Part shown: positions 1,031-12,518 of the stretch, one piece after another
Position numbering within the stretch: position 1 is the stretch's first letter
Layout: every line of letters begins with the position of its first letter
NCBI GenBank assembly: GCA_013330765.1
Contig: DUHU01000119.1
Span: 1-12,518 of the forward strand
Direction: 5' to 3'
Source: Candidatus Poseidoniaceae archaeon
GTDB lineage: Archaea; Thermoplasmatota; Poseidoniia; Poseidoniales; Poseidoniaceae
Length of the DNA: 12,518 nucleotides
Made by a program: the position numbers and the translations under genes
Notes under the pieces: generated by a model
Told to the model about the DNA's origin: nothing
What the model saw: the letters and a program-made list of their open reading frames with translations, nothing else
Database searches by the model: none

Positions 1031-1107
1031 CGGATGCCATCGACCCCCATCGGTCAAAGTGTTCAAGGAGCGTGCTCAGCGCCTGCAAGACGGACCGAGG
1101 GAGCATC

Positions 1108-4100
1108 ATGCACGACGTCCGCGTAGAGGTGACCCCGAGGCTCGGCGGCCAAGCCGTGGACGTGCGTGGCAACGTCGTCAAGGCACGGCTTTTGCAAGAT
1201 TTGGGCATCGACGTCACCAAGGTGCGCTCCATCTCCGGGTTCGTGGTTCGCAGCCCCGTCGTCGCCAGCATGTTGGGCGAACGTGTTGACGACCTTTTCG
1301 TGGATCCAATCATCGAGGTTGGACGCCTCGGCTCAGCATGGCTCGACGACGACACCCTGTTCCCCGATGCGCCAGATCTGGTCATCACGATCGGCTTCAA
1401 GCCCGGCGTGACCGACAACGCAGGAAGCGCAGCACTCGACGGATTGCGGACCCTCTTTCCAGAGGCGCGCGTCGAGGGGGCGGCGGTCGCGACCGACCTG
1501 ACCTTTGCCTTCTACGGGTTACCCGAGGGCGCCGACGGGCCGTCCATTGCCGCCGGTTTGCACAACCCGCTCATTGAGCGTGCCCTGATTCAATCGGCAC
1601 CTGGCGCCGAAGGCTGGCAACAGCTTGGGTACCCCGAGCGCCCTGTCGTGGAAGCACAACCTCCTGCGGCCGTGGACCTCGAACTCGACGACGAGGCCTT
1701 GATTCGTCTTTCAGAGGAAGGTTTGCTGGCCTTGAACCTCGAGGAGATGCAAACCATCCGTGACCATTACCGCCACCCCGAGGTTCAGGCGGCGCGCACG
1801 GCGCTCGGCCTACCTCCCCACGCCCCCACGGACGTGGAATTGGAGTGTTTGGCGCAAACCTGGAGCGAGCATTGCAAGCACAAGATCTTCGCTGCACACA
1901 TCCATCACCGCGACGAGGAGACCGGCGAGGACGTGGAGATCGATTCGCTGTTCAAGACGCACATCATGCGACCCACCCTCGACATGCAGGAGGAGATGCC
2001 GTGGCTGCTGTCGGTGTTCCACGACAACTCGGGCGTCATCGCCTGGGACGACGAATGGAGCGTCTGCATGAAGGCGGAAACCCACAATTCACCGTCGGCC
2101 CTCGACCCCTACGGCGGAGCCATGACCGGCATCGTGGGCGTCAACCGCGACATTCTCGGAACCGGGCTGGGCGCCCGCCCCATCGCCAACACCGACGTGT
2201 TCTGCTTCGGTCCACCCAAGTGGGAAGGCGACCTCCCCTCCAACCTCTTCCATCCCAGCCGAGTGCTTCGCGGCGTGCATGCAGGCGTTCGCGTCGGCGG
2301 CAACGAATCTGGTATTCCAACGGTGAACGGGGCCATCGTCTTCGACGACCGTTACATCGGCAAGCCACTGGTCTACTGCGGCACGGTCGGATTGATGCCG
2401 GCCACCTTGCCCGACGGCCGCCCGGGCCATGCCAAGACCGCAGAACCGGGCGATCTGGTGTACATGGTCGGCGGGCGCATCGGTGCTGACGGCATCCACG
2501 GCGCCACCTTCTCCTCGCTTGAGTTGACCGAAGATTCCCCCTCGAGCGCCGTACAAATCGGCGACCCCATCACCCAGAAGAAAATGCTCGACATGATCCT
2601 CGAAGCACGCGATGCGGGGCTGATCGCCAGCATCACCGACAACGGCGCAGGCGGCATTTCTTCGTCCATCGGCGAGATGGCCGAGCAAACCGGTGGCGTG
2701 GAAATCGACCTCGCCGCAGCTCCGCTGAAACAAGTGGGCCTCTCGGCGTGGGAGATCCTCGTGTCTGAATCCCAAGAGCGGATGACCGTCGCCGTCCACC
2801 CGCATCACGCCGAGGCCTTCGAGGCGATGGCCGCGATTCACGAAGTGGAAGCCACAGTGGTCGCCACCTTCACCGACGACGGGCGCTTTTTGGTGAGGCA
2901 CGGTGACGATGTCGTCGCTTTGTTGCCCCTTGACTTCCTCCACGACGGCGTCCCCCAACTTCGCTTGGAGAGCGTATGGTCTCCGCCCGAGCACGCCGCA
3001 TTTGTTGCGCCGGAAACACCGGATCACAACGACCTCTTGCTTCGCTTGCTCGCCCGACCAAACGTGGCCAGCAAGGAAGATTGGGTCCGGCAGTACGACC
3101 ACGAAGTCATCGCTCAAACCGCCGTCAAGCCCTTTGTTGGCGTCGAGCGCGACGGTCCGGCCGATGCGGCGGTGATCGCACCGCTGCACGGCTCCAGCCG
3201 CGGCTTGGTGATCAGCAACGGCATCGTGCCCCGCTATGCGGATCTCGATGCAGGAGCCATGGTCGTGGCCGCCGTTGACGAGGCGGTGCGAAACGCCGTG
3301 TGTGTGGGCATCGACGTCGACCGCATGGCAGGACTCGACAATTTTTGTTGGCCCGACCCCATCGTCTCAGAGAAGACCCCAGACGGCCGGTTCAAACTCG
3401 CCCAACTCGTTCGTGCCAACCGAGAGTTGGAACGGATGTGCCGTGCGTATCGCGTTCCCTGCGTGTCTGGCAAGGACTCGATGAAGAACGATTACGGAAC
3501 GGGCGCAGACAAAATTTCCATTCCTCCCACCATGCTCTTCTCGCTCTTCGGCGATCATCCCGACGTGCGCATGACCGCCACGTCCGACCTGAAGCGCGAA
3601 GGCGAACGCCTCTACCTCTTCGGTCGTTGCAGGCAGGAACTTGGAGCCTCTGAAGTGGCGAGCATGCTCAGCGAGTCCGGCGAAGCCGCTGGCATCGGCG
3701 GCGCCGTGCCGGCCATGGAACATCCCGAAGCACAACGCGAGGCTTACGCTGCCCTCTCCGCCGAAATTGGTGCAGGCCGCATTCGCACCGCCCACGATTG
3801 TTCAGAGGGCGGACTCGGCGTCGCCTTGGCCGAGATGTGCATCGGCGGTCGACGAGGTGCCATGATCGACCTTGACGGTTTGGGACTTGACGGCGCGGAC
3901 ACCTTCGGGCAACTGTGGGGCGAGTCCCTTGGGCGCATCGTCATCGGCGTCGAGGCCCTTCACGAGGCCGAGGTCTGCGATGCGCTGGAACAGCACGGAC
4001 TGACCCTGATCGGCCTCGTGGTTGAGGGAGGCCGTTTGGTGGTCGAGGACGGCTACGACGCGTTGATCGACGTGTCCGTCGACGACATGGTGGCGGCATG

Positions 4101-4140
4101 GAAGGCCCCACTCGCGCTTCCCGTGGGAGGTGAGCGTTGA
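1108..4140 (+). CDS. purL: Phosphoribosylformylglycinamidine synthase, fused PurS-PurL subunit (PurSL)
   Basis: Synthetase part of FGAM synthase, which converts FGAR, ATP and glutamine-derived ammonia to FGAM in cytoplasmic purine synthesis. The ATG at 1108 is chosen, giving 1010 aa: a purine-rich GAGGGAG lies just before it and the protein then opens directly on the PurS-like strand HDVRVEV. An in-frame upstream codon at 1072 would add 12 residues. The first 160 or so residues hold two PurS-like units in tandem. The linker ends in WSEHCKHK (W252). The two synthetase halves show ETHNSPSALDPYGG (from E324), NGAGGISSS (from N512), SESQERM (553-559), SGKDSMKND (from S787) and HDCSEGG (H896-G902), all typical of PurL. 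Length is well above the usual 700-750 aa of a small archaeal or Gram-positive PurL and below the roughly 1300 aa of the one-chain enzyme, because the glutaminase is the separate next gene. It overlaps purQ by one base. Confidence 0.95.
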   Translation: MHDVRVEVTPRLGGQAVDVRGNVVKARLLQDLGIDVTKVRSISGFVVRSPVVASMLGERVDDLFVDPIIEVGRLGSAWLDDDTLFPDAPDLVITIGFKPGVTDNAGSAALDGLRTLFPEARVEGAAVATDLTFAFYGLPEGADGPSIAAGLHNPLIERALIQSAPGAEGWQQLGYPERPVVEAQPPAAVDLELDDEALIRLSEEGLLALNLEEMQTIRDHYRHPEVQAARTALGLPPHAPTDVELECLAQTWSEHCKHKIFAAHIHHRDEETGEDVEIDSLFKTHIMRPTLDMQEEMPWLLSVFHDNSGVIAWDDEWSVCMKAETHNSPSALDPYGGAMTGIVGVNRDILGTGLGARPIANTDVFCFGPPKWEGDLPSNLFHPSRVLRGVHAGVRVGGNESGIPTVNGAIVFDDRYIGKPLVYCGTVGLMPATLPDGRPGHAKTAEPGDLVYMVGGRIGADGIHGATFSSLELTEDSPSSAVQIGDPITQKKMLDMILEARDAGLIASITDNGAGGISSSIGEMAEQTGGVEIDLAAAPLKQVGLSAWEILVSESQERMTVAVHPHHAEAFEAMAAIHEVEATVVATFTDDGRFLVRHGDDVVALLPLDFLHDGVPQLRLESVWSPPEHAAFVAPETPDHNDLLLRLLARPNVASKEDWVRQYDHEVIAQTAVKPFVGVERDGPADAAVIAPLHGSSRGLVISNGIVPRYADLDAGAMVVAAVDEAVRNAVCVGIDVDRMAGLDNFCWPDPIVSEKTPDGRFKLAQLVRANRELERMCRAYRVPCVSGKDSMKNDYGTGADKISIPPTMLFSLFGDHPDVRMTATSDLKREGERLYLFGRCRQELGASEVASMLSESGEAAGIGGAVPAMEHPEAQREAYAALSAEIGAGRIRTAHDCSEGGLGVALAEMCIGGRRGAMIDLDGLGLDGADTFGQLWGESLGRIVIGVEALHEAEVCDALEQHGLTLIGLVVEGGRLVVEDGYDALIDVSVDDMVAAWKAPLALPVGGER
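4126..4133 (+). promoter_or_regulatory. Strong Shine-Dalgarno site for purQ inside the end of purL
   Basis: GGAGGTGA is a full-length match to the usual anti-Shine-Dalgarno sequence. It sits six bases before the ATG at 4140 and only three before the in-frame TTG at 4137, so it favours the ATG. The site lies within the last codons of purSL, whose TGA (4138-4140) shares its final A with the purQ start. This points to coupled translation of the two subunits. Confidence 0.8.
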
Positions 4141-5015
4141 TGACGACCGTCCGCGTTGCGGTGTTGTTTGGCTTCGGCATCAACTGCGACCATGAAACGG
4201 CGGCGGTGTTCCGGCTCGTGGGGGCAGAGGCAGAACGCCTTCACGTCAATCGCCTCATCGAATCACCGGGGCTACTGTCCTCCTACGACATCCTCGCCAT
4301 TCCAGGCGGCTTTTCCTTCGGCGACCACCTTGGCAGCGGGCGCCTCCTTGGCAACCGCTTGCGCTTCGCGCTTCGCGAACCGTTGCGTGACTTTGTCGCG
4401 AACGGCGGCCCCGTCATCGGCATTTGCAATGGATTCCAGGTCCTGGTCAAGACCGGCCTGTTGCCAGGGCCCCCCGCCAACGGCGACCTCACGCCAGACT
4501 TCGAGCAACGCGCGTCCCTGGCGCTGAACGAAAGCGGGCGTTACGAAGACCGTTGGGTGACCCTCGAATTTGACCCGGAGAGTCCCTGCGTGTGGACGCA
4601 GGGCCTCACCCGCATCGACTGCCCGGTGCGGCACGGTGAGGGGCGTTTTGTCGTCGATGACGAAGCGGTGCTCGATGCAATGGACGAAGCCCACCAACTC
4701 GTGGTGCGGTACGTCGACCCGAACACGCCCAAGGGCGAGGGCCGAACCGACGTCCGCCTGCCTTACCCCACGTCACCGAATGGATCCGCACGAAACATCG
4801 CGGGCGTGTGCGATGCCACAGGCCTCGTGTTTGGCCTGATGCCTCACCCCGAAGCCGTCTATGCCAAGTGGTTGCACCCAGACCACACACGCTACACCGC
4901 ACCAGAAGCAGAAGCGAGCATCCCCATCGAGGAGCGCAGCCTCGGGGAATGGGAAGGGGAAGGCTTGCAGATTTTCCGCAACGCCGTGGATTTTGTTCGC
5001 AACCGATCGTCCTGA
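4140..5015 (+). CDS. purQ: Phosphoribosylformylglycinamidine synthase, glutaminase subunit PurQ
   Basis: Class I glutamine amidotransferase subunit of FGAM synthase: it hydrolyses glutamine and passes ammonia to the PurSL subunit encoded just upstream. It is 291 aa from the ATG at 4140, chosen because of the strong ribosome site at 4126-4133. The N-terminus (VLFGFGINCDHETA) and IPGGFSFGDHLGSGR are PurQ signatures. The nucleophile is C96 in GICNGFQVL, and H236 and E238 in MPHPEA complete the triad. The length is greater than the roughly 220-230 aa of PurQ partners of small PurL. It matches the longer form that goes with fused PurSL, with the extra sequence around residues 180-220 and at the C-terminus. 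It forms an operon with purSL (one-base overlap) and probably with the downstream membrane acyltransferase, which starts within about ten bases of this stop in the same reading frame. Confidence 0.95.
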   Translation: MTTVRVAVLFGFGINCDHETAAVFRLVGAEAERLHVNRLIESPGLLSSYDILAIPGGFSFGDHLGSGRLLGNRLRFALREPLRDFVANGGPVIGICNGFQVLVKTGLLPGPPANGDLTPDFEQRASLALNESGRYEDRWVTLEFDPESPCVWTQGLTRIDCPVRHGEGRFVVDDEAVLDAMDEAHQLVVRYVDPNTPKGEGRTDVRLPYPTSPNGSARNIAGVCDATGLVFGLMPHPEAVYAKWLHPDHTRYTAPEAEASIPIEERSLGEWEGEGLQIFRNAVDFVRNRSS

Positions 5016-6045: not shown

Positions 6046-7830
6046 CCTTGACCCGGTCTGGACGGACCAGAGGCGGTGGTAAAGCCCCTCTTTTGCCAAC
6101 AGGTCTTCATGAGAGCCAGACTCGACGACCGCGCCGCCCTCGAGGACCAAGATACGATCCGCATGGCGAACCGTCGACAAGCGATGGGCAATGATGACCG
6201 TCGTGCGCCCTTCGGCCACTTTGTGGAGTGAACGTTGGATGGCCGCTTCCGTTTCGTTGTCCACCGCCGACGTGGCTTCGTCAAGAATGAGGACTGGCGC
6301 ATCTTTCAACACCGCGCGAGCCAAGGCCAGCCGCTGGCGCTGCCCGCCGGACAAGCGGTGACCTCCCTCGCCGACCAGGGTGCTGTACCCGTCCGGGAAG
6401 GAGCGGATGAACGCGTCTGCTTCTGCCGCCTTGGCCGCTGCCTCCACGGCCTCGTCGTCGGCTTCAGGTCGGCCGTACCGAATGTTCTCCAAAACGCTGG
6501 TCGGAAAGAGCGTGACGTGCTGATCGACCAGCGCCATCTTGGAGCGCAAGGATTGCGTCGACCATGAACGGAGGTCGTGACCGCACCACGTGACCGCACC
6601 TTCGTTTGGGTCGATGAAGCGCATGAGCAGACGAATCAGGGTCGTTTTTCCTGACCCGGTTGAACCGACAATGCCCACGGTGGTTTGCGCGTCGATGTCA
6701 ACGCTGACACCGTCGAGGACCGTTTCGCGCCCGGGGTGCGCGAAGGTGACGTTCTCCAACCTGAGGGTGGACGTGGCCGCTTCCTCCCGCGTGGGATCGA
6801 CGTCACCGTCCACCAAGCTGTCCGGCGCTTCGACAAGGTCGAGGATGCGGGCCGTCGATGCCATGGCGCGTTGGTAGAGGTCGAAGGTTTCCCCAAGGCG
6901 TGTCAACGGCCACAAGAGGCGTTGCGTCATGAAGACGAGGACCGAATAAGCTCCGACCTCAAGCGTTCCTTCCAGCGTGAACCAACCTCCAAGAAGCAAG
7001 GTTCCAGTAAACCCGACGAGGATGGCCATGCGGATCAGCGGAACGAAGCCGGCCGACAAGCGAATGGCTTCGCGGTTTCGGGCCCTGTAAGCTTCGCTGA
7101 GTGCGGTCAACCGTTCTGCCTCAAGGGCCTCTGCGGTGAAGGATTGGATGGTGGTCATGCCGCCAATGTCGTTTTCGAGCAAGGCGTTGAGGTCTCCAGC
7201 CGCATCGCGCACGCTCAGGTATTTTGGCTCCAACGCCCGTTGGTAGCGGAACGAGCCCCACAGAATGAGGGGCACGGGCATGAACGCCAGCAACGCCACT
7301 TCCCATGCGATGGCGAAGAAGATCACGCCGACGACGATCACCGTGGTGCCGACCTGCAACAGGTCGTTGGCCCCCTTGTCGAGGAAGCGTTCGAGTTGGT
7401 TCACGTCGTCGTTGAGCACCGCCAAAAGGTCGCCCTTCCGCCGTTCGTCAAACCACGAAGGGGCGTGCCCCAGCACGCGTTCAAACGTCGCCATGCGCAC
7501 GTCGTGCTGGACGCTTTGGGCGAGGTTTCGCCACAGGACGCCGTACCAGTATTCGAACAAGGATTCGAGGGCCCAAATGGCCACGGTGACCACGGAAAGC
7601 AGCAGCAATTGGTGCCAAGGATCGACCACGCCAAAGGAGGCAAGCAACGAGTCCTCTTGCGTCACCACCACGTCGACAGCAACGCCGATGAGCAGGGGGG
7701 GCGCCAAATCCCAGATTTTGTTGAGGATGGAACACAGCACCGCCAAACGGATGGTTGCAGCCCGATGGGCGACGTGGCCCATGAGGCGTCGCAACGGCCC
7801 CCGTTCTTCCATGATGGGCGCTCGCGCCAT
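6043..7830 (-). CDS. ABC transporter half-molecule with fused membrane and ATPase domains (MsbA/BmrA-like exporter)
   Basis: Type IV ABC exporter half-transporter of 595 aa, expected to work as a dimer in the cytoplasmic membrane. It probably exports lipids, drugs or other hydrophobic compounds; the actual cargo cannot be told. The membrane domain spans about residues 20-320 with six helices (around 28-52, 73-95, 150-166, 167-187, 256-272 and 282-305). The ATPase domain covers about 355-590: Walker A GSTGSGKTT (389-397), Q-loop Gln437, signature LSGGQ (483-487), Walker B VLILDE (D507, E508) followed by the D-loop SAVD, and switch His529 in IIAHR. All catalytic residues are present, so both sites of a homodimer should be active. 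The ATG at 7830 is used; Met7 (7812) is an alternative. No clear ribosome site precedes either. It is single, with no partner gene beside it, and is divergent from the GGGP synthase and convergent with the acyltransferase. Confidence 0.93.
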   Translation of the reverse strand: MARAPIMEERGPLRRLMGHVAHRAATIRLAVLCSILNKIWDLAPPLLIGVAVDVVVTQEDSLLASFGVVDPWHQLLLLSVVTVAIWALESLFEYWYGVLWRNLAQSVQHDVRMATFERVLGHAPSWFDERRKGDLLAVLNDDVNQLERFLDKGANDLLQVGTTVIVVGVIFFAIAWEVALLAFMPVPLILWGSFRYQRALEPKYLSVRDAAGDLNALLENDIGGMTTIQSFTAEALEAERLTALSEAYRARNREAIRLSAGFVPLIRMAILVGFTGTLLLGGWFTLEGTLEVGAYSVLVFMTQRLLWPLTRLGETFDLYQRAMASTARILDLVEAPDSLVDGDVDPTREEAATSTLRLENVTFAHPGRETVLDGVSVDIDAQTTVGIVGSTGSGKTTLIRLLMRFIDPNEGAVTWCGHDLRSWSTQSLRSKMALVDQHVTLFPTSVLENIRYGRPEADDEAVEAAAKAAEADAFIRSFPDGYSTLVGEGGHRLSGGQRQRLALARAVLKDAPVLILDEATSAVDNETEAAIQRSLHKVAEGRTTVIIAHRLSTVRHADRILVLEGGAVVESGSHEDLLAKEGLYHRLWSVQTGSR

Positions 7831-7898
7831 TGGGTTTCATGATGGTGGTTGGCTCGGCAACGGCTATCGTCCTCTGCTCCGTGGTCGAATCGGTCGAG
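7831..7898. promoter_or_regulatory. Divergent intergenic region between ABC transporter and GGGP synthase
   Basis: These 68 bases must hold both promoters if the GGGP synthase starts at ATG 7899. No convincing AT-rich TATA box or Shine-Dalgarno site is visible on either strand. The + strand frame is open through the whole region (TTG 7830, ATG 7839, ATG 7842), so a longer GGGP synthase N-terminus is possible, in which case the gap disappears. Confidence 0.4.
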
Positions 7899-8720
7899 AT
7901 GCGTTCAGAGCACGGCGATGTGTTGGCTCACGTGACGGCGGAGGCTGGACCACGGCATGCCTTGCTCATCGATCCAGGGAAGCAGGACGTCGAATTGGCC
8001 GCTCGCCGCGCCCTGGTGGCGGTGGAACGAGGGACACGCCTCCTCCTCGTGGGCGGTTCTACGGACACGCCCGACGACGTCGTGCACGCCACATGCACAG
8101 CGATTCAAGACGCGCTTGACCTCGCGGCCATGGCAGCATCACAGAATCCCGAAGGGAATGAAGACAAGTGGCGCGTTCCTGTGGTGCTTTTCCCCGGGGG
8201 CGCTCATGCCCTTTCGCCCGCCGCCGACGGCATCCTGTTCATGATGCTCATGAACAGCACCGACCCTCGCTTTCTCATCTCTGAACAAGTACGCGGCGCC
8301 CCCTACATCGCACAATTTGGTCTCGACACCGTGCCGACCGGTTACCTTGTGACGGCTCCCGGCGGAGAGGTTGGAAGGGTTGGGAACGCCGATTTGGTGG
8401 ATCCAGATGACGTAGGGAGGGTCAAGGCGAACGCCCTGACGGCTTCCATGTACGGTTTCCGCCTGCTCTACTTGGAGGCGGGCTCAGGGGCTGACGTGCC
8501 GGTAAATCCGGATTTGATCCGAGCGGCCCGCGACGTGGACGGGTTGACCGTGATGGTCGGGGGCGGTTTGCGCAACGGAGCGGCGGTTCGCCGAGCCGTA
8601 CAGGCCGGAGCACACTGGGTGGTCACCGGGACCCTGATTGAGGAAACAGCAGACACAGCAGCCTTGACTCAAGCATTGGACGACGTGCTGAGCGGCCTTG
8701 CCGCTCAATCTTCGTCATAG
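7899..8720 (+). CDS. Geranylgeranylglyceryl phosphate synthase
   Basis: Prenyltransferase that joins sn-glycerol-1-phosphate to geranylgeranyl diphosphate, forming the first ether bond of archaeal membrane lipids. The protein is a single TIM-barrel of 273 aa from ATG 7899. This start is preferred because the next residues run straight into the first strand, HALLIDPGK (D25-K28), as in family members; starts at 7830, 7839 or 7842 would add 19-23 residues with no family counterpart. Further signatures are LLLVGGSTD, VVLFPGG, an AADGILFMMLMNS helix, GYLVTAPGGEVGRVG, LYLEAGSGA (from Y191, E193) with the glycerol phosphate-binding glycines, VMVGGGLRN and GAHWVVTGT. The insert around residues 75-95 (SQNPEGNEDKW) is longer than in small members, as seen in the larger archaeal group. 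It is the strongest pointer to an archaeal host, though some bacteria also carry homologues. Its last 16 bases overlap the end of the coiled-coil gene on the other strand. Confidence 0.93.
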   Translation: MRSEHGDVLAHVTAEAGPRHALLIDPGKQDVELAARRALVAVERGTRLLLVGGSTDTPDDVVHATCTAIQDALDLAAMAASQNPEGNEDKWRVPVVLFPGGAHALSPAADGILFMMLMNSTDPRFLISEQVRGAPYIAQFGLDTVPTGYLVTAPGGEVGRVGNADLVDPDDVGRVKANALTASMYGFRLLYLEAGSGADVPVNPDLIRAARDVDGLTVMVGGGLRNGAAVRRAVQAGAHWVVTGTLIEETADTAALTQALDDVLSGLAAQSSS

Positions 8721-9985
8721 ACCACAGGGTCGCCTTTTCCGCCGGGTGCTGGTGGACGGTCTTCGTCGAGTGCGTTCCCAACAGGGACCTCTTCCACGGC
8801 AACGCCGAGGTCGATTTGACCACCTTCGGCGAGTTCTTCCATGTCCTTGACCGTCGGGGAATTGATTCGGCGCTCAACGTCTGGGGCATCGGCGTAAGCC
8901 GCCCGAGCCGCCTCGCGCTGGTCATGTCCCCGGACCAAACCGAGCGAGTCGGAGAATGCTTTGCCGACGACTTCGCGCGTGCGTTCGCCACGGCGCTGGC
9001 GCGCGACTTCGTCCTCGGCGTCCGAAGCGCGTGCTTCGAGATCGCGCAATTCAGCGGTGCGGTCTTGCAAGGCCGCCTCGATGTCGGTCATGGTGAGCGT
9101 CATCTGTTGGAGCCGCTCATCGCGCTCAAACACATCGTTGTGGAGGCGACGCTCACGGCGACGGAGCGACTCATACTCTCGGTTTCGTTCGAGCAAGCGT
9201 CGCTTCAGGTCCTCGATCTGTTCCACGAGGTAATCGTGTTCAGCGGAAATGGATTTTGGACCGCTCATCACGCGCTCGACTTGATCTTCAAGTTCCGCCA
9301 AGCGTTGATCGCGTACGTCGATGAGGCCGCGAAGGCGGTCAGCGATGTCTCTGAGACGTTGCCGTTCCTCCTCGAGGTTCCGAACGCTGGCCTGTTCGCT
9401 GGCGAGCGCGCTCTGCGATTCGTCGTTGAGTTGCTTCAACCTGCGGACTTCGTCCGCGGTCACAGAGGTCAAGCCTGCATCGGCCGCCCGTTCTAACGCG
9501 ACCACCATTCGCTCCACCCGCTCTTCCATTTCTCCAATGACCTGGTCCTGTTCTTCGCAAAGGGCGCCAAGGCGCTCCATTTCTCCGGTCAGGCGGGTGC
9601 GTTCTTCAGCAGAGGAGGAAGCCGCATGCATCGCCGCTTCTTCTCTCGCGTCTTCGAGCAGTCGCTCGAGGTGAACGATACGTGCTTGTGCGTCGCTCGC
9701 CACTTGTTCGACTTCCTTGAGGCGTTTGACCTCAGGAGCCACTTCGTCGGCACGTTCGGCCAAATCAAGCTCCATCACGCGGAGACGTTGCTTCGCTTCG
9801 ACGACCTCGTCGTTGCGCTCGGCCAACTCCTCCCAAGCGGTCATGACTTCCTCGACCAACTGCTCTACGGGGTAGCCGCGGAGCATTCCTTCGAGGGCCG
9901 CTCGTTCCTCACGAGCACCGGAGGTCCCACGTGTCGAGGCTGCTTCGCTGGACGACATGTGAGCGTGAAGCCCGTCGAACCGCAC
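8705..9985 (-). CDS. Long coiled-coil protein next to an actin homologue
   Basis: I do not recognise a named family. The 426 aa product is almost entirely helical and charged, with heptad-like spacing from about residue 25 to 345. Likely breaks lie near 168-178 (DAGLTSVTAD) and 251-260 (SGPKSISAEH), giving three coiled-coil segments. The end (about 360-426) has no heptads and is Pro/Gly/Asp/Glu-rich, finishing in DPVVYDED. There is no signal peptide or membrane helix, so it should be cytoplasmic. The GTG at 9985 is used because AAGGAAGG lies just before it; ATG 9958 (MSSSEAAS) is the alternative. The gene follows the MamK-like actin by 62 bases on the same strand, so the two are probably co-transcribed. 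By analogy with other actin-partner coiled coils, such as crescentin working with MreB, it may bind, bundle or position the filament; that is inference. An SMC-like role is unlikely because no ATPase head is present. Confidence 0.8.
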   Translation of the reverse strand: MRFDGLHAHMSSSEAASTRGTSGAREERAALEGMLRGYPVEQLVEEVMTAWEELAERNDEVVEAKQRLRVMELDLAERADEVAPEVKRLKEVEQVASDAQARIVHLERLLEDAREEAAMHAASSSAEERTRLTGEMERLGALCEEQDQVIGEMEERVERMVVALERAADAGLTSVTADEVRRLKQLNDESQSALASEQASVRNLEEERQRLRDIADRLRGLIDVRDQRLAELEDQVERVMSGPKSISAEHDYLVEQIEDLKRRLLERNREYESLRRRERRLHNDVFERDERLQQMTLTMTDIEAALQDRTAELRDLEARASDAEDEVARQRRGERTREVVGKAFSDSLGLVRGHDQREAARAAYADAPDVERRINSPTVKDMEELAEGGQIDLGVAVEEVPVGNALDEDRPPAPGGKGDPVVYDED

Positions 9986-10047
9986 TTGAACCTTCCTTCA
10001 ATCGAGCCCTTGAGGGCCTGCGTTGTCGAAGCGGAACGGCAGCGCCG

Positions 10048-11052
10048 TCACTCGATGGAGGTGAACATGTCTTCAGGCATGTCCTGTGCGAGCGCGACAG
10101 CGCCCACAGCCACCTTGTCGATGGGATCTTCGACGCAGCGCACGGCCACATTGCCGATGTCTGCAATCTCCGCAGCAAGCCGGTCAGCGATGCCTTCGAT
10201 GAGGGAGCCGCCACCGGACAAGATGATGTTCTGGCGGAAGGTTTCCTGGTACTCCGGATCTGCGCCTGCAACCGTCTTCTTGATGCCGTTTCCAAGCAGG
10301 GGGACGAGAGCGTCGCAGGCTTCACCGATGAGGTCGCCAATGTCGACACGCTGCTGCTTGCCTTCGACGGAAAGGTCGACGAGCACTTCGCGGACGTCGC
10401 CGCCCACGTAGGAGGACGCTTCCTTCCAGCGGCGGACCATGTCCTTGGTGACTTGGGCGCCGGTGTACTTCTTGCGGATGAGGTCCATGAGGTGGAGGTC
10501 GAGCCAATCGCCGGCCTCGGCGATGCTGATTTGGTCTTCGTCGTTGGGGAAGGTCCCGTACAAGCGGGCAATGTCCGTGGTGCCTGCGCCGATGTCGACC
10601 ATGATGGTCCCGTGGAATTCACCGATACCGTAGGCGGTGGCGAAGGGTTCGCTCACCACCATGATGGCGTTGACTTGACCACGCAGGGTCGCGACGAGGT
10701 TGGATTTGTCCGTAAAGGAAACGTGCGACGGAGAGCAGACCACGCCCACCACTTCGTCGTACTCTTCGGGATCCATGGTTTCGATGAGGTGACCCATGAA
10801 GGCCTTCGCCGCTGCGAGGTTGGCTTCGTCGTCTTGCGTGACGCCCTTGGCCATCGGGCGGTAAAGGTCACAGGACATCTTGTGCTTCAGGGCTTCCGCG
10901 CCAAACAACACGTCGCGCTTGAGCATGTTCCGGGCCACGGGGTCCTTGGGACGACCGACGACGGTTTCCACGGTGTGGATGGTGCCGGAGCTCGATGCGA
11001 TGGTCGATTGGTACGTGCCAAGGTCAATGCCGATGTACAGTCGTTCGCTCAT
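10048..11052 (-). CDS. MamK-like actin homologue (MreB/actin superfamily ATPase)
   Basis: Cytoplasmic filament-forming ATPase of the actin fold. The 334 aa product starts at ATG 11052 (MSERLYIGIDLG); an in-frame TTG at 11061 would add three residues. The actin motifs are in order: phosphate 1 GIDLGT (D10-T13), catalytic Glu135 in VVSEPF, phosphate 2 DIGAGTTD (D153-D160), adenosine loop LSGGGSLIEG (258-267) and connect 2 KVAVGAVALA near the end. Several stretches read like the magnetosome actin MamK rather than MreB: VVGRPKD, the DLYRPMAKGV region, VDIGAGTTDI followed by LYGTFPNDEDQ, and PEYQETFRQNIILSGGGS. The spacing E135 to D153 equals that between the ATPase-critical E143 and D161 of Magnetospirillum MamK, as I recall it. 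No membrane-binding N-terminal helix is seen. No magnetosome gene is nearby. It sits 62 bases before the coiled-coil gene and 69 bases after the TSP3-repeat gene, all on one strand. Hsp70-like or ParM-like identity is less likely, given the length and motif text. Confidence 0.88.
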   Translation of the reverse strand: MSERLYIGIDLGTYQSTIASSSGTIHTVETVVGRPKDPVARNMLKRDVLFGAEALKHKMSCDLYRPMAKGVTQDDEANLAAAKAFMGHLIETMDPEEYDEVVGVVCSPSHVSFTDKSNLVATLRGQVNAIMVVSEPFATAYGIGEFHGTIMVDIGAGTTDIARLYGTFPNDEDQISIAEAGDWLDLHLMDLIRKKYTGAQVTKDMVRRWKEASSYVGGDVREVLVDLSVEGKQQRVDIGDLIGEACDALVPLLGNGIKKTVAGADPEYQETFRQNIILSGGGSLIEGIADRLAAEIADIGNVAVRCVEDPIDKVAVGAVALAQDMPEDMFTSIE

Positions 11053-11090
11053 TTGGTCCAACGTCCTATGATGCCTCGACTGCGCGTCCG

Positions 11091-11121: not shown

Positions 11122-12468
11122 TCATTCGTCCTCTTCATTTGGCCTTGATGAAGCGATAAACGGGTCACGCAAACCCCTATCGCCCCCTTCATCCGGCTTC
11201 CGCCACAGGAAAACCGTCACAACCAGCACCAAGAGGAGTCCTGCCAACGCGACAGGCCGGAACACGGGAGGTGCTTGTTCGCCCACGCTCGCTGAGGGGA
11301 GGACCTTCATGGTCGCTCGAACATCATCTGGGGGCATGGCCACCTCAAGGGTGGCTTCGGGCGAACCGTTGTCTGTTTCAAAGGTCAGGATGACCTCGAT
11401 CACCGACCCGTTGCCAGCCCAAGGCACGGCCCAAACGGAGGCATTCCACCGAAGCACGTGCTCGCCAGCTCCGCTTTCTTGTTGCAGACTTGCAGGCAAC
11501 GGCACACCGTCGACCACCAGCGATGCGGCCAAAACCCCCCCGTCCCCGTCTTCGTCTTGGACCGTCACGCGAACGATCATCACGTCTCCCGGAGCGGGCT
11601 CTGGAGTGATCAGCACCGCTTCCACCGTGGGCACCACATCAATGGGACGACATCCGTCAAGGTTGGTCGGCCATGCCGAATCGTTGACCGTGTTGGGGCA
11701 CGCATCGAGGTGATCAGGCACGCCGTCAGCGTCCAGGTCGTCCAAACAACCGTCACCGTCCACGTCAGCGGGCCGGGCGTCCTCGTCGGGACAAAGGTCG
11801 TCCACGTCGTCCACGCCGTCCATGTCCCGGTCGTCAGGACATCCGTCCCCATCGGCGTCTGCTGCACCCCCAGCTTCGCTCACGCACCCGTCGGCGGAAT
11901 CAACCACGCCGTCTCCGTCCGAGTCCTTCGGACCCGGAGCGCCCCGCTCGACGCCCATGACGGCCAAAGCAAATCCGATGCGATCGCCGTCCGTACCAAG
12001 GTATCCGGGGAGGTTCCCGGGCACGACGTGGCGGGCCACCACCTCCACCGTCACCGATGAGACGTTGGCCAGGTCGGCAGCAAGAACGCGCACCCCGCGC
12101 AACGTTTCGTTTGAGCGCGCAGGAGCGACAACCCCGTCGTTCAGGACCGAACTTCCTGCGAAATCAAGGCCGGAGGTCGCCGTTCGTCCGTCGTCGAGGT
12201 GAACGTGCAGCACAAGATCGTCCACGGCCTGATTCCCCAGCGACGGATAGGCCAAACGGACGTCGAGGTCCTCACCCGCGCGCACGTCAAATGTACGCAC
12301 GTAGCGTTCACCTTCCGCAAGGAAGGGGCCAACAGCGCCGGCCCCGTCCCAAGGAATTTCACTCAGCCTGCCGCTGTCGCCGGAGGCGGCGGAAGCACAG
12401 CGCCGCAGCATGCCGCCAAAGCAGAATGCCGTCGCGTTGCGCGAAAAGGTCAACTGGCTGATCCACAT
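11122..12468 (-). CDS. Thrombospondin type 3 repeat protein with C-terminal membrane anchor
   Basis: Probable cell-surface or exported calcium-binding protein, 448 aa from ATG 12468. An N-terminal beta-rich domain (about 40-175) precedes a run of thrombospondin type 3-like repeats (about 182-273). These have DSDGDGVVDSADGC, DADGDGCPDD, DMDGVDDVDDLCP, DVDGDGCLDD and DADGVPDHLDACP units, whose Asp spacing is typical of Ca2+ ligands, with regularly placed Cys. A second beta-rich domain (about 278-385) with several N-x-S/T sequons follows. A single membrane helix (about 395-412, ALAGLLLVLVVTVFLW) and a short charged inner tail ending in NEEDE complete it. No clear signal peptide is seen at the N-terminus, which is odd for this layout. 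The frame stays open to the right edge, so the true start may be GTG 12477 or lie outside, or a frameshift may hide the signal. ATG 12468 is preferred because an AT-rich box lies about 29 bases upstream. The function is unknown; adhesion or envelope organisation is possible. Confidence 0.75.
   Translation of the reverse strand: MWISQLTFSRNATAFCFGGMLRRCASAASGDSGRLSEIPWDGAGAVGPFLAEGERYVRTFDVRAGEDLDVRLAYPSLGNQAVDDLVLHVHLDDGRTATSGLDFAGSSVLNDGVVAPARSNETLRGVRVLAADLANVSSVTVEVVARHVVPGNLPGYLGTDGDRIGFALAVMGVERGAPGPKDSDGDGVVDSADGCVSEAGGAADADGDGCPDDRDMDGVDDVDDLCPDEDARPADVDGDGCLDDLDADGVPDHLDACPNTVNDSAWPTNLDGCRPIDVVPTVEAVLITPEPAPGDVMIVRVTVQDEDGDGGVLAASLVVDGVPLPASLQQESGAGEHVLRWNASVWAVPWAGNGSVIEVILTFETDNGSPEATLEVAMPPDDVRATMKVLPSASVGEQAPPVFRPVALAGLLLVLVVTVFLWRKPDEGGDRGLRDPFIASSRPNEEDE
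11650..11925 (-). repeat. Block of thrombospondin type 3 (Ca2+-binding) protein repeats
   Basis: This encodes about 92 residues in which DxDGDG or DxDGV units recur every 12-25 residues, with Cys at DGC, CP and ACP positions. The repeat is at protein level; the DNA units are too diverged to look like a recent tandem expansion. Calcium binding is inferred from the Asp pattern of the family. Confidence 0.8.
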
Positions 12469-12492
12469 GCAGTACACACGGCAGGAGTGCGC

Positions 12493-12507
12493 ATTATTTT
12501 TCTTTTC
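12493..12507 (-). promoter_or_regulatory. TATA/BRE-like promoter for the TSP3-repeat gene
   Basis: Read on the - strand this is GAAAAGAAAAATAAT, the most AT-rich stretch of a GC-rich window. A purine-rich BRE-like part precedes an AAAAATAA box. The box centre is about 29 bases before ATG 12468, which would place transcription start at or just before that codon, giving a leaderless message as is common in archaea. Confidence 0.5.
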
Positions 12508-12518
12508 GCAGCATCGCA

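Follow-up and report, generated by a model that had tools for sequence, protein, structure and literature searches.

A subtilase, a MamK-like actin and a coiled-coil protein encoded together point to a possible surface-linked filament system in Poseidoniales archaea

The stretch of DNA analysed here, referred to as the window, is the 12,518-nucleotide contig DUHU01000119.1 (C209) of an archaeal genome of 1.55 Mb that is 60% complete. An earlier note, made from the letters alone, had picked out on its minus strand a MamK-like actin gene followed by a gene for a coiled-coil protein, and had proposed the pair as a two-gene cytoskeletal module in a host that looked archaeal. The archaeal origin was borne out, since the window carries a GGGP synthase gene (7830-8720) and database entries related to the actin bear the names Candidatus Poseidoniales, Poseidoniaceae or Thalassarchaeaceae archaeon; the host is a Candidatus Poseidoniales archaeon. 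The Poseidoniales are abundant, uncultured, protein-degrading marine archaea. The two-gene picture proved incomplete: the gene upstream of the actin (11122 to the window end, minus strand), which the note did not mention, belongs to the same run, and by the domains of its full-length relatives it is a membrane-anchored extracellular subtilase, cut at the window end. The cluster suggests that these uncultured ocean archaea have a so far undescribed filament system inside the cell that is linked to its surface.

The three-gene run and its products

The same-strand genes for the subtilase, actin A and the coiled-coil protein (CC) are flanked by F2, a divergent gene, on one side and by the convergent GGGP synthase gene on the other. 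This holds in both families of the order compared here, f1 (the family of the window) and f2. The features in the window are as follows.

7830..8720, plus strand: GGGP synthase, the convergent neighbour that bounds the run and lies outside it
8705..9985, minus strand: CC, 426 residues from GTG 9985, more likely 417 residues from ATG 9958
8924..8986, minus strand: CC residues 334-354, a further conserved block (64%), followed by a variable tail
9050..9262, minus strand: longest stretch of conserved sequence in CC (residues 242-312), with 80% identity between the two families; the short form of CC does not have it
9491..9904, minus strand: CC residues 28-165, the N-terminal part, common to the short CC of actin-less relatives
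10048..11052, minus strand: MamK-like actin A, 334 residues from ATG 11052; a TTG start at 11061 is possible (open reading frame (ORF) 10048-11061)
11122..12516, minus strand: C-terminal 464 residues of the subtilase; the gene runs off the contig end and its catalytic domain lies outside the window
11125..11208, minus strand: predicted cytoplasmic tail of the subtilase, 28 residues, with DPF and an acidic end
11209..11265, minus strand: predicted single C-terminal transmembrane helix of the subtilase (fragment residues 418-436; hydropathy 2.43 over 19 residues)

Judged by its sequence, actin A is intact. All the ATPase motifs quoted in the earlier note are present; the phosphate 1, phosphate 2, connecting and adenosine motifs align with those of MamK and place the protein in the actin superfamily, and G8, D10, G12, T13, E135, P136, D153, G155, G157, T158, G280 and G281 are invariant in 30 aligned actins. 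Pfam returned MreB_Mbl (1.7e-21) and Actin (2.1e-13). The description of the protein as MamK-like stands in that MamK is nearest by score, by solved structure (MamK 5ljw, 1.3e-60) and by identity (34%, with 31% for BeeR and 27% for MreB), but with 331 bits actin A falls under the curated cut-off of 400 bits for the MamK model NF040964. The second actin of these genomes, actin B (355 bits), and the f2 copies of A (340 bits) and B (377 bits) are under it as well; it is exceeded by G258, an archaeon from outside the order (435 bits), and by 5/5 bacterial relatives tested (415-440 bits). The cut-offs were likewise not reached with the BeeR model NF053558 (209 of 530 bits), the MreB models NF010539 (76 of 293) and TIGR00904 (61 of 366), or the salactin models NF053533 (27 of 400) and PF25229 (22 of 27), and the Pfam search gave no match of actin A to Volactin (PF25216). 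Database relatives are often labelled 'rod shape-determining protein', many relatives of actin A bear precomputed PF25229 and PF25216 labels, and one actin B fragment reached 45 bits with PF25229, over the cut-off of 27.

In an actin tree of 58 rows (12 of 70 were left out), A is split from the rest (99/99) and B forms one group (100/99), each with rows of both families. The bacterial MamK-like proteins, G258 and MamK make up a third group (98/100), with A and B outside. BeeR joins the tree between A and all other rows. The root is unsure because MreB falls within A, on a very long branch (more than eight changes per column). The earlier note had named a position within MreB or Hsp70-like proteins as fatal to its proposal; by score actin A is far from both, although the tree cannot place MreB safely.

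The note's coiled-coil protein, 62 base pairs (bp) after the actin stop on the same strand, was confirmed, and an alignment suggests the ATG at 9958 as its true start. In CC, 67% of the residues pass the heptad score; 200 shuffled versions of the same sequence average 9%, and none exceeds 31%. The AlphaFold model, built with 37 sequences, predicts helices at 40-169, 177-240 and 246-365 (mean predicted local distance difference test score 80.7, predicted template modelling score 0.25), that is, a protein that is almost entirely helix with no globular ATPase part. CC has no Pfam or PDB relative besides weak coiled-coil matches. A DivIVA-like N-terminus, a resemblance seen by eye, was rejected, as neither CC nor its N-terminal part gave a Pfam or PDB match to it.

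Identity between the families (27 f1 rows against 8 f2 rows, with two rows of genus g4 left out) varies strongly along CC, from 59% at residues 28-80, 36% at 81-165, 84% at 166-181 and 39% at 182-241 to 80% at 242-312, 30% at 313-333, 64% at 334-354 and 15% beyond 354. The block 242-312 is the best candidate for contact with the actin because it is conserved between the families and missing from the short form of actin-less relatives.

For the third gene, the window fragment itself gave a weak TSP_3 match, and PF00082 was found in 14/14 full-length relatives tested. In 37 loci out of 39 the actin is directly preceded by a co-directional ORF; in the remaining two the contig breaks off at this point. 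Thirty-four of these ORFs exceed 600 residues (shorter pieces occur in the window, L072 and L074), and 31 of the 34 carry the D, H and S motifs in order, the exceptions being L071, L113 and L123. Since full-length copies at this place in seven genus-mates have 985-1104 residues, the fragment in the window is probably less than half of the full protein. Most of the subtilases have a C-terminal membrane helix followed by a tail of 7-42 residues, with no helix detected in L116 and L215. A P-x(0,1)-F motif occurs in the last 45 residues of 21/27 f1 subtilases and was not seen in the f2 tails examined.

Conservation and joint absence within the order

In family f1, 115 genomes were searched with the actin and CC queries, which matched 112 and 105 genomes, respectively. 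Sorting these matches by hand left actin A in 105 genomes, CC in 105 and both in 101. The conserved adjacency that the earlier note had asked for in related genomes was found: CC lies downstream of actin A on the same strand, with 65-198 bp between the matched stretches, in 94 of the 101. Its concern that the coiled-coil gene might be absent or unlinked where the actin is kept applies to a minority. CC is not within 300 bp of actin A in 7/101 genomes (unlinked in three, and displaced downstream in four, by 1.6 kb in G008 and G024, 2.3 kb in G100 and 3.9 kb in G033), and 4/105 actin A genomes gave no CC match (G014, G043, G064 and G086; two of these actin matches are themselves cut). CC without a match to A was seen in G006, G084, G092 and G113.

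An order sample of 145 genomes (72 f1, 73 f2) extended the comparison. Actin A occurs in 12/73 f2 genomes, and the long CC occurs in the same 12 (E 6e-84 or better). Outside the order, the actin matched one genome in a phylum sample of 292, namely G258, Thermoplasmata archaeon SG225.bin14.

In f2 genomes that lack the actin, the site is occupied by just a short CC, 140-183 residues long, that corresponds to CC 28-165. Neither the actin nor this subtilase was present in any of 21 such loci fetched, which had been chosen for a weak CC match. GGGP synthase is convergent within 1.6 kb in 19/21, while the contigs of L087 and L098 end 0.5-1.8 kb on without it. F2 directly precedes the short CC in 13 loci, as it precedes the subtilase in 17 actin-bearing loci. 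As an observation on these loci (L083-L103), the short CC kept beside GGGP synthase bears an LVxEVxxxW-like signature.

A profile of the short-CC part matched 19/31 actin-less f2 genomes in the phylum sample, 15 of them at E <1e-30; the other four, all weak and in genus g12, may be chance. Four of the 12 misses were checked, and G121, G127 and G148 have no GGGP match while in G118 GGGP lies beside a contig end. Six weak matches outside the order (E 4e-4 to 0.009) were read as chance, and the sister family f3 (six genomes) gave no match. All 6 actin-bearing genomes tested, including the one that supplied the query, have the subtilase orthologue; it was found in 0/11 actin-less genomes, which gave matches to longer subtilases only at E 1e-7 or weaker, or none.

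A tree built by a quick method from GGGP synthase and two neighbouring genes at 32 loci joins the actin-less loci in one group inside f2 (99), so a single change is needed. With f1 placed on the opposite side of the root, the absence of actin and subtilase reads as one loss, the direction depending on that rooting. Genus g15 (G118 and G148) was considered as a further case of independent loss and rejected: in G118 the contig stops 84 bases away from the GGGP gene, and G148 gave no GGGP match, which looks like gaps in assembly. Comparing the short and long forms of CC offers a natural test of which CC segment goes with the actin. The proposal of CC as a dedicated partner of the actin stands as far as the pairing is conserved, but the first part of CC also exists without any actin.

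The single actin of the earlier note is also an incomplete picture, as most genomes carry a second one elsewhere. In the genome of the window, actin B (46% identity to A) is encoded on a separate contig, and at least two actin matches occur in 100 of the 112 f1 genomes with any match, some of them split or doubled genes. In 8/8 loci (L002 (G000:C273), L104-L111) actin B directly follows a conserved zinc-ribbon-like gene of about 340 residues. Neither A nor B was matched in the actin-less f2 genomes, and G192 (f2) has only B.

Related actins and their neighbours

MamK gives the best family score and the best structure match, and its ATPase motifs are kept in actin A. One difference is that, in the tree of unsure root, A falls outside the group of MamK and the bacterial MamK-like proteins. 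In line with the earlier note, there is no member of a magnetosome gene cluster among the main ORFs of the window, the remaining genome not having been searched for such genes. BeeR, a three-stranded actin of Verrucomicrobiota, is also a MamK-side actin of non-magnetotactic cells according to the accessible part of PMC11929497; it comes from the other domain of life, and actin A from ATG 11052 lacks the N-terminal extension of 30-50 residues described there. Salactin and Volactin are archaeal actins like A, from haloarchaea, and MamK is the nearest relative reported for Salactin in the text available of PMC10746226; A scores far higher with MamK. In deep-branching magnetotactic bacteria, coiled-coil Mad proteins work together with MamK and Mad28, likewise two actins with coiled-coil partners (PMC12748827, in the part available to us). 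That system is magnetosome-bound.

The genes of the run are already present in databases. No published description of them, or of the cytoskeleton of the Poseidoniales, was found in the open-access literature, most subscription papers being outside reach, and the accessible portions of PMC9258230, PMC10746226 and PMC12507015 do not treat a Poseidoniales actin.

Scanning named species genomes with G258 and MamK gave at least 539 relatives, of which the best 80 were kept; besides G258, this set comprises 79 entries titled as bacteria, for the most part Nitrospirota, Planctomycetota and Thermodesulfobacteriota. Among the 77 loci of the best 80 with at least 600 bp upstream, an amidase-like gene lies immediately upstream on the same strand in 45, distributed as 23/25 in Nitrospirota, 16/17 in Thermodesulfobacteriota and 0/24 in Planctomycetota (denominators are all loci of the phylum). 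The one amidase-like protein tested is an Amidase_3, and by eye the N-termini have a hydrophobic helix after about 35-60 residues. These loci resemble the window in that the gene directly before the actin encodes a hydrolase that is located outside the cytoplasm and has a membrane helix. They differ in the hydrolase, which is amidase-like with its helix near the N-terminus, in the downstream coiled-coil gene, which is not the rule, and in the ORFs, which usually overlap, often by 28 bp as called (L125-L203, e.g., L152:5004-7053).

Several smaller observations concern these bacterial loci. An ILxGVYEENLxI-type motif lies near the amidase N-terminus in 39/45, or 15/45 with a narrower pattern. 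When scored with an amidase-derived matrix, the G258 partner and B1 did not stand out, and only some planctomycete upstream proteins scored well (e.g., L189, background fraction 0.006), which is a lead within bacteria. In the Planctomycetota loci L166, L167, L189, L193, L195 and L199, a protein of 223-570 residues, mostly coiled-coil, precedes the actin and by eye ends in a similar ExNLxL-type stretch, a likeness the matrix supports for just some of them. A downstream coiled-coil gene as a general rule for bacterial MamK-like actins was rejected: the lower threshold is passed by 2/34 downstream genes on the same strand, including that of G258, against a background of 1.3% of 457 other genes (L127, L139 and L196 are outside the count). 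In G258 (L081/L124, JAEHCK010000014.1) this gene encodes a 618-residue, partly coiled-coil protein with no Pfam family, 201 bp downstream of the actin.

What the filament may serve

Gene order, conservation, domains and joint absence are the observed basis for treating the subtilase, actin A and CC as a module. Our preferred reading, which we hold tentatively and just short of calling it probable, is that they form one transcription unit and one working module linked to the surface. The three genes would be transcribed together. Actin A would, as expected from its family, polymerise with ATP, and the long helical CC could bind the filament through its conserved second half and either bundle it or set its place, while the first part of CC, also found without actin, may do another job. 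The transmembrane subtilase, with its protease outside and a short tail inside, would be cargo or anchor. As such, the filament would place a surface protease or tie the surface to the cytoskeleton. Also in favour of this reading are the CC block 242-312 that the short form lacks, the correlation of actin and CC distances beyond the GGGP signal (partial r 0.68) and the bacterial parallel of amidase-like genes upstream of MamK-like actins.

Ranked behind this, and rather unlikely in our estimation, is a shape or scaffold skeleton in which CC bundles the actin A filament and the subtilase is a co-transcribed passenger, e.g., an enzyme of surface turnover. The distances among 20 loci favour it, as actin and CC correlate strongly (r 0.91; partial r 0.68 after the GGGP signal is removed), in contrast to actin and subtilase (r 0.51; partial r 0.11) and to CC and subtilase (r 0.46; partial r 0.0), all without a null distribution; beyond the species signal the link of subtilase and actin is thus nil. 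The distant G258 has just an actin and a coiled-coil protein, and Volactin acts in the disk shape of Haloferax (in the accessible part of PMC10869688). Such a skeleton does not explain, however, why the actin remains beside the subtilase in the six fetched of the seven genomes with a displaced CC (G004, G022, G008, G024, G033 and G100), nor why the subtilase is absent from all 11 actin-less genomes tested.

Besides the lack of distance correlation between actin and subtilase, several observations weigh against the surface-linked module. CC residues 28-80 and 166-181 are conserved too, and 28-80 lies in the actin-independent part. The subtilase tail is variable across families, and four f1 tails have just 9-13 residues. 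CC is unlinked in three genomes, all of genus g4 (on other contigs in G004 and G030; 62 kb away on the opposite strand in G022). In G258, no hydrolase adjoins the actin, and the upstream gene reads as Kae1-like. A motif common to the bacterial amidases and CC was rejected, as the amidase-trained matrix scores the CC site at -16.5, below background. The joint absence of actin and subtilase, being one event, is a single case that could reflect general genome shrinkage. Finally, the neighbours F2, F7, F11, GGGP, F3 and F4 are also conserved, though unrelated, so adjacency alone is weaker than it appears.

Positioning of an intracellular compartment or other cargo, as MamK does with magnetosomes and with CC as the adaptor, is improbable. 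MamK is the closest solved relative, and coiled-coil Mad proteins interact with MamK of Desulfovibrio magneticus in two-hybrid assays (PMC12748827, in the part available), but neither the run nor the main ORFs of the window hold a compartment gene. Slightly less credible still are chance neighbours within a generally stable gene order; the conserved flanking genes would fit such an origin, but the same-strand run with short gaps, the joint absence of exactly these genes and the shortened CC would not. We regard a role in DNA segregation, again with CC as adaptor, as very improbable: one source (JGI) names CC a chromosome segregation ATPase, but its weak SMC-like matches, at 29 of 567 bits, are far under the cut-off, the predicted CC structure is nearly all helix without a globular ATPase part, and the genes around the locus are conserved. 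A role in placing the archaellum or a chemotaxis pole, suggested by archaellins in 69/72 f1 genomes of the order sample, is barely credible and largely refuted by the mismatch of traits in f2, where G123 and G137 have the actin without an archaellin match and genera g14 and g21 have archaellin without an actin match.

The surface-linked module, if correct, would give the Poseidoniales a concrete, testable cytoskeleton of two actins, a coiled-coil protein and a surface protease. It would also tie an archaeal actin to an envelope enzyme and help to explain MamK-like actins in cells without magnetosomes. More speculatively, and unlikely as matters stand, MamK-type actins of bacteria and archaea could at root be envelope-linked filaments that place a membrane-anchored hydrolase acting outside the membrane. 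This hydrolase would be a wall amidase for the Nitrospirota and Thermodesulfobacteriota and a subtilase for the Poseidoniales; coiled-coil partners would have been added, and the alignment of magnetosomes would be one later use.

Elsewhere in the window, at 1072-5015 on the plus strand, the genes for PurL (1022 residues) and PurQ overlap by 4 bases, and PurL has about 250 residues ahead of the part matched by PurL models.

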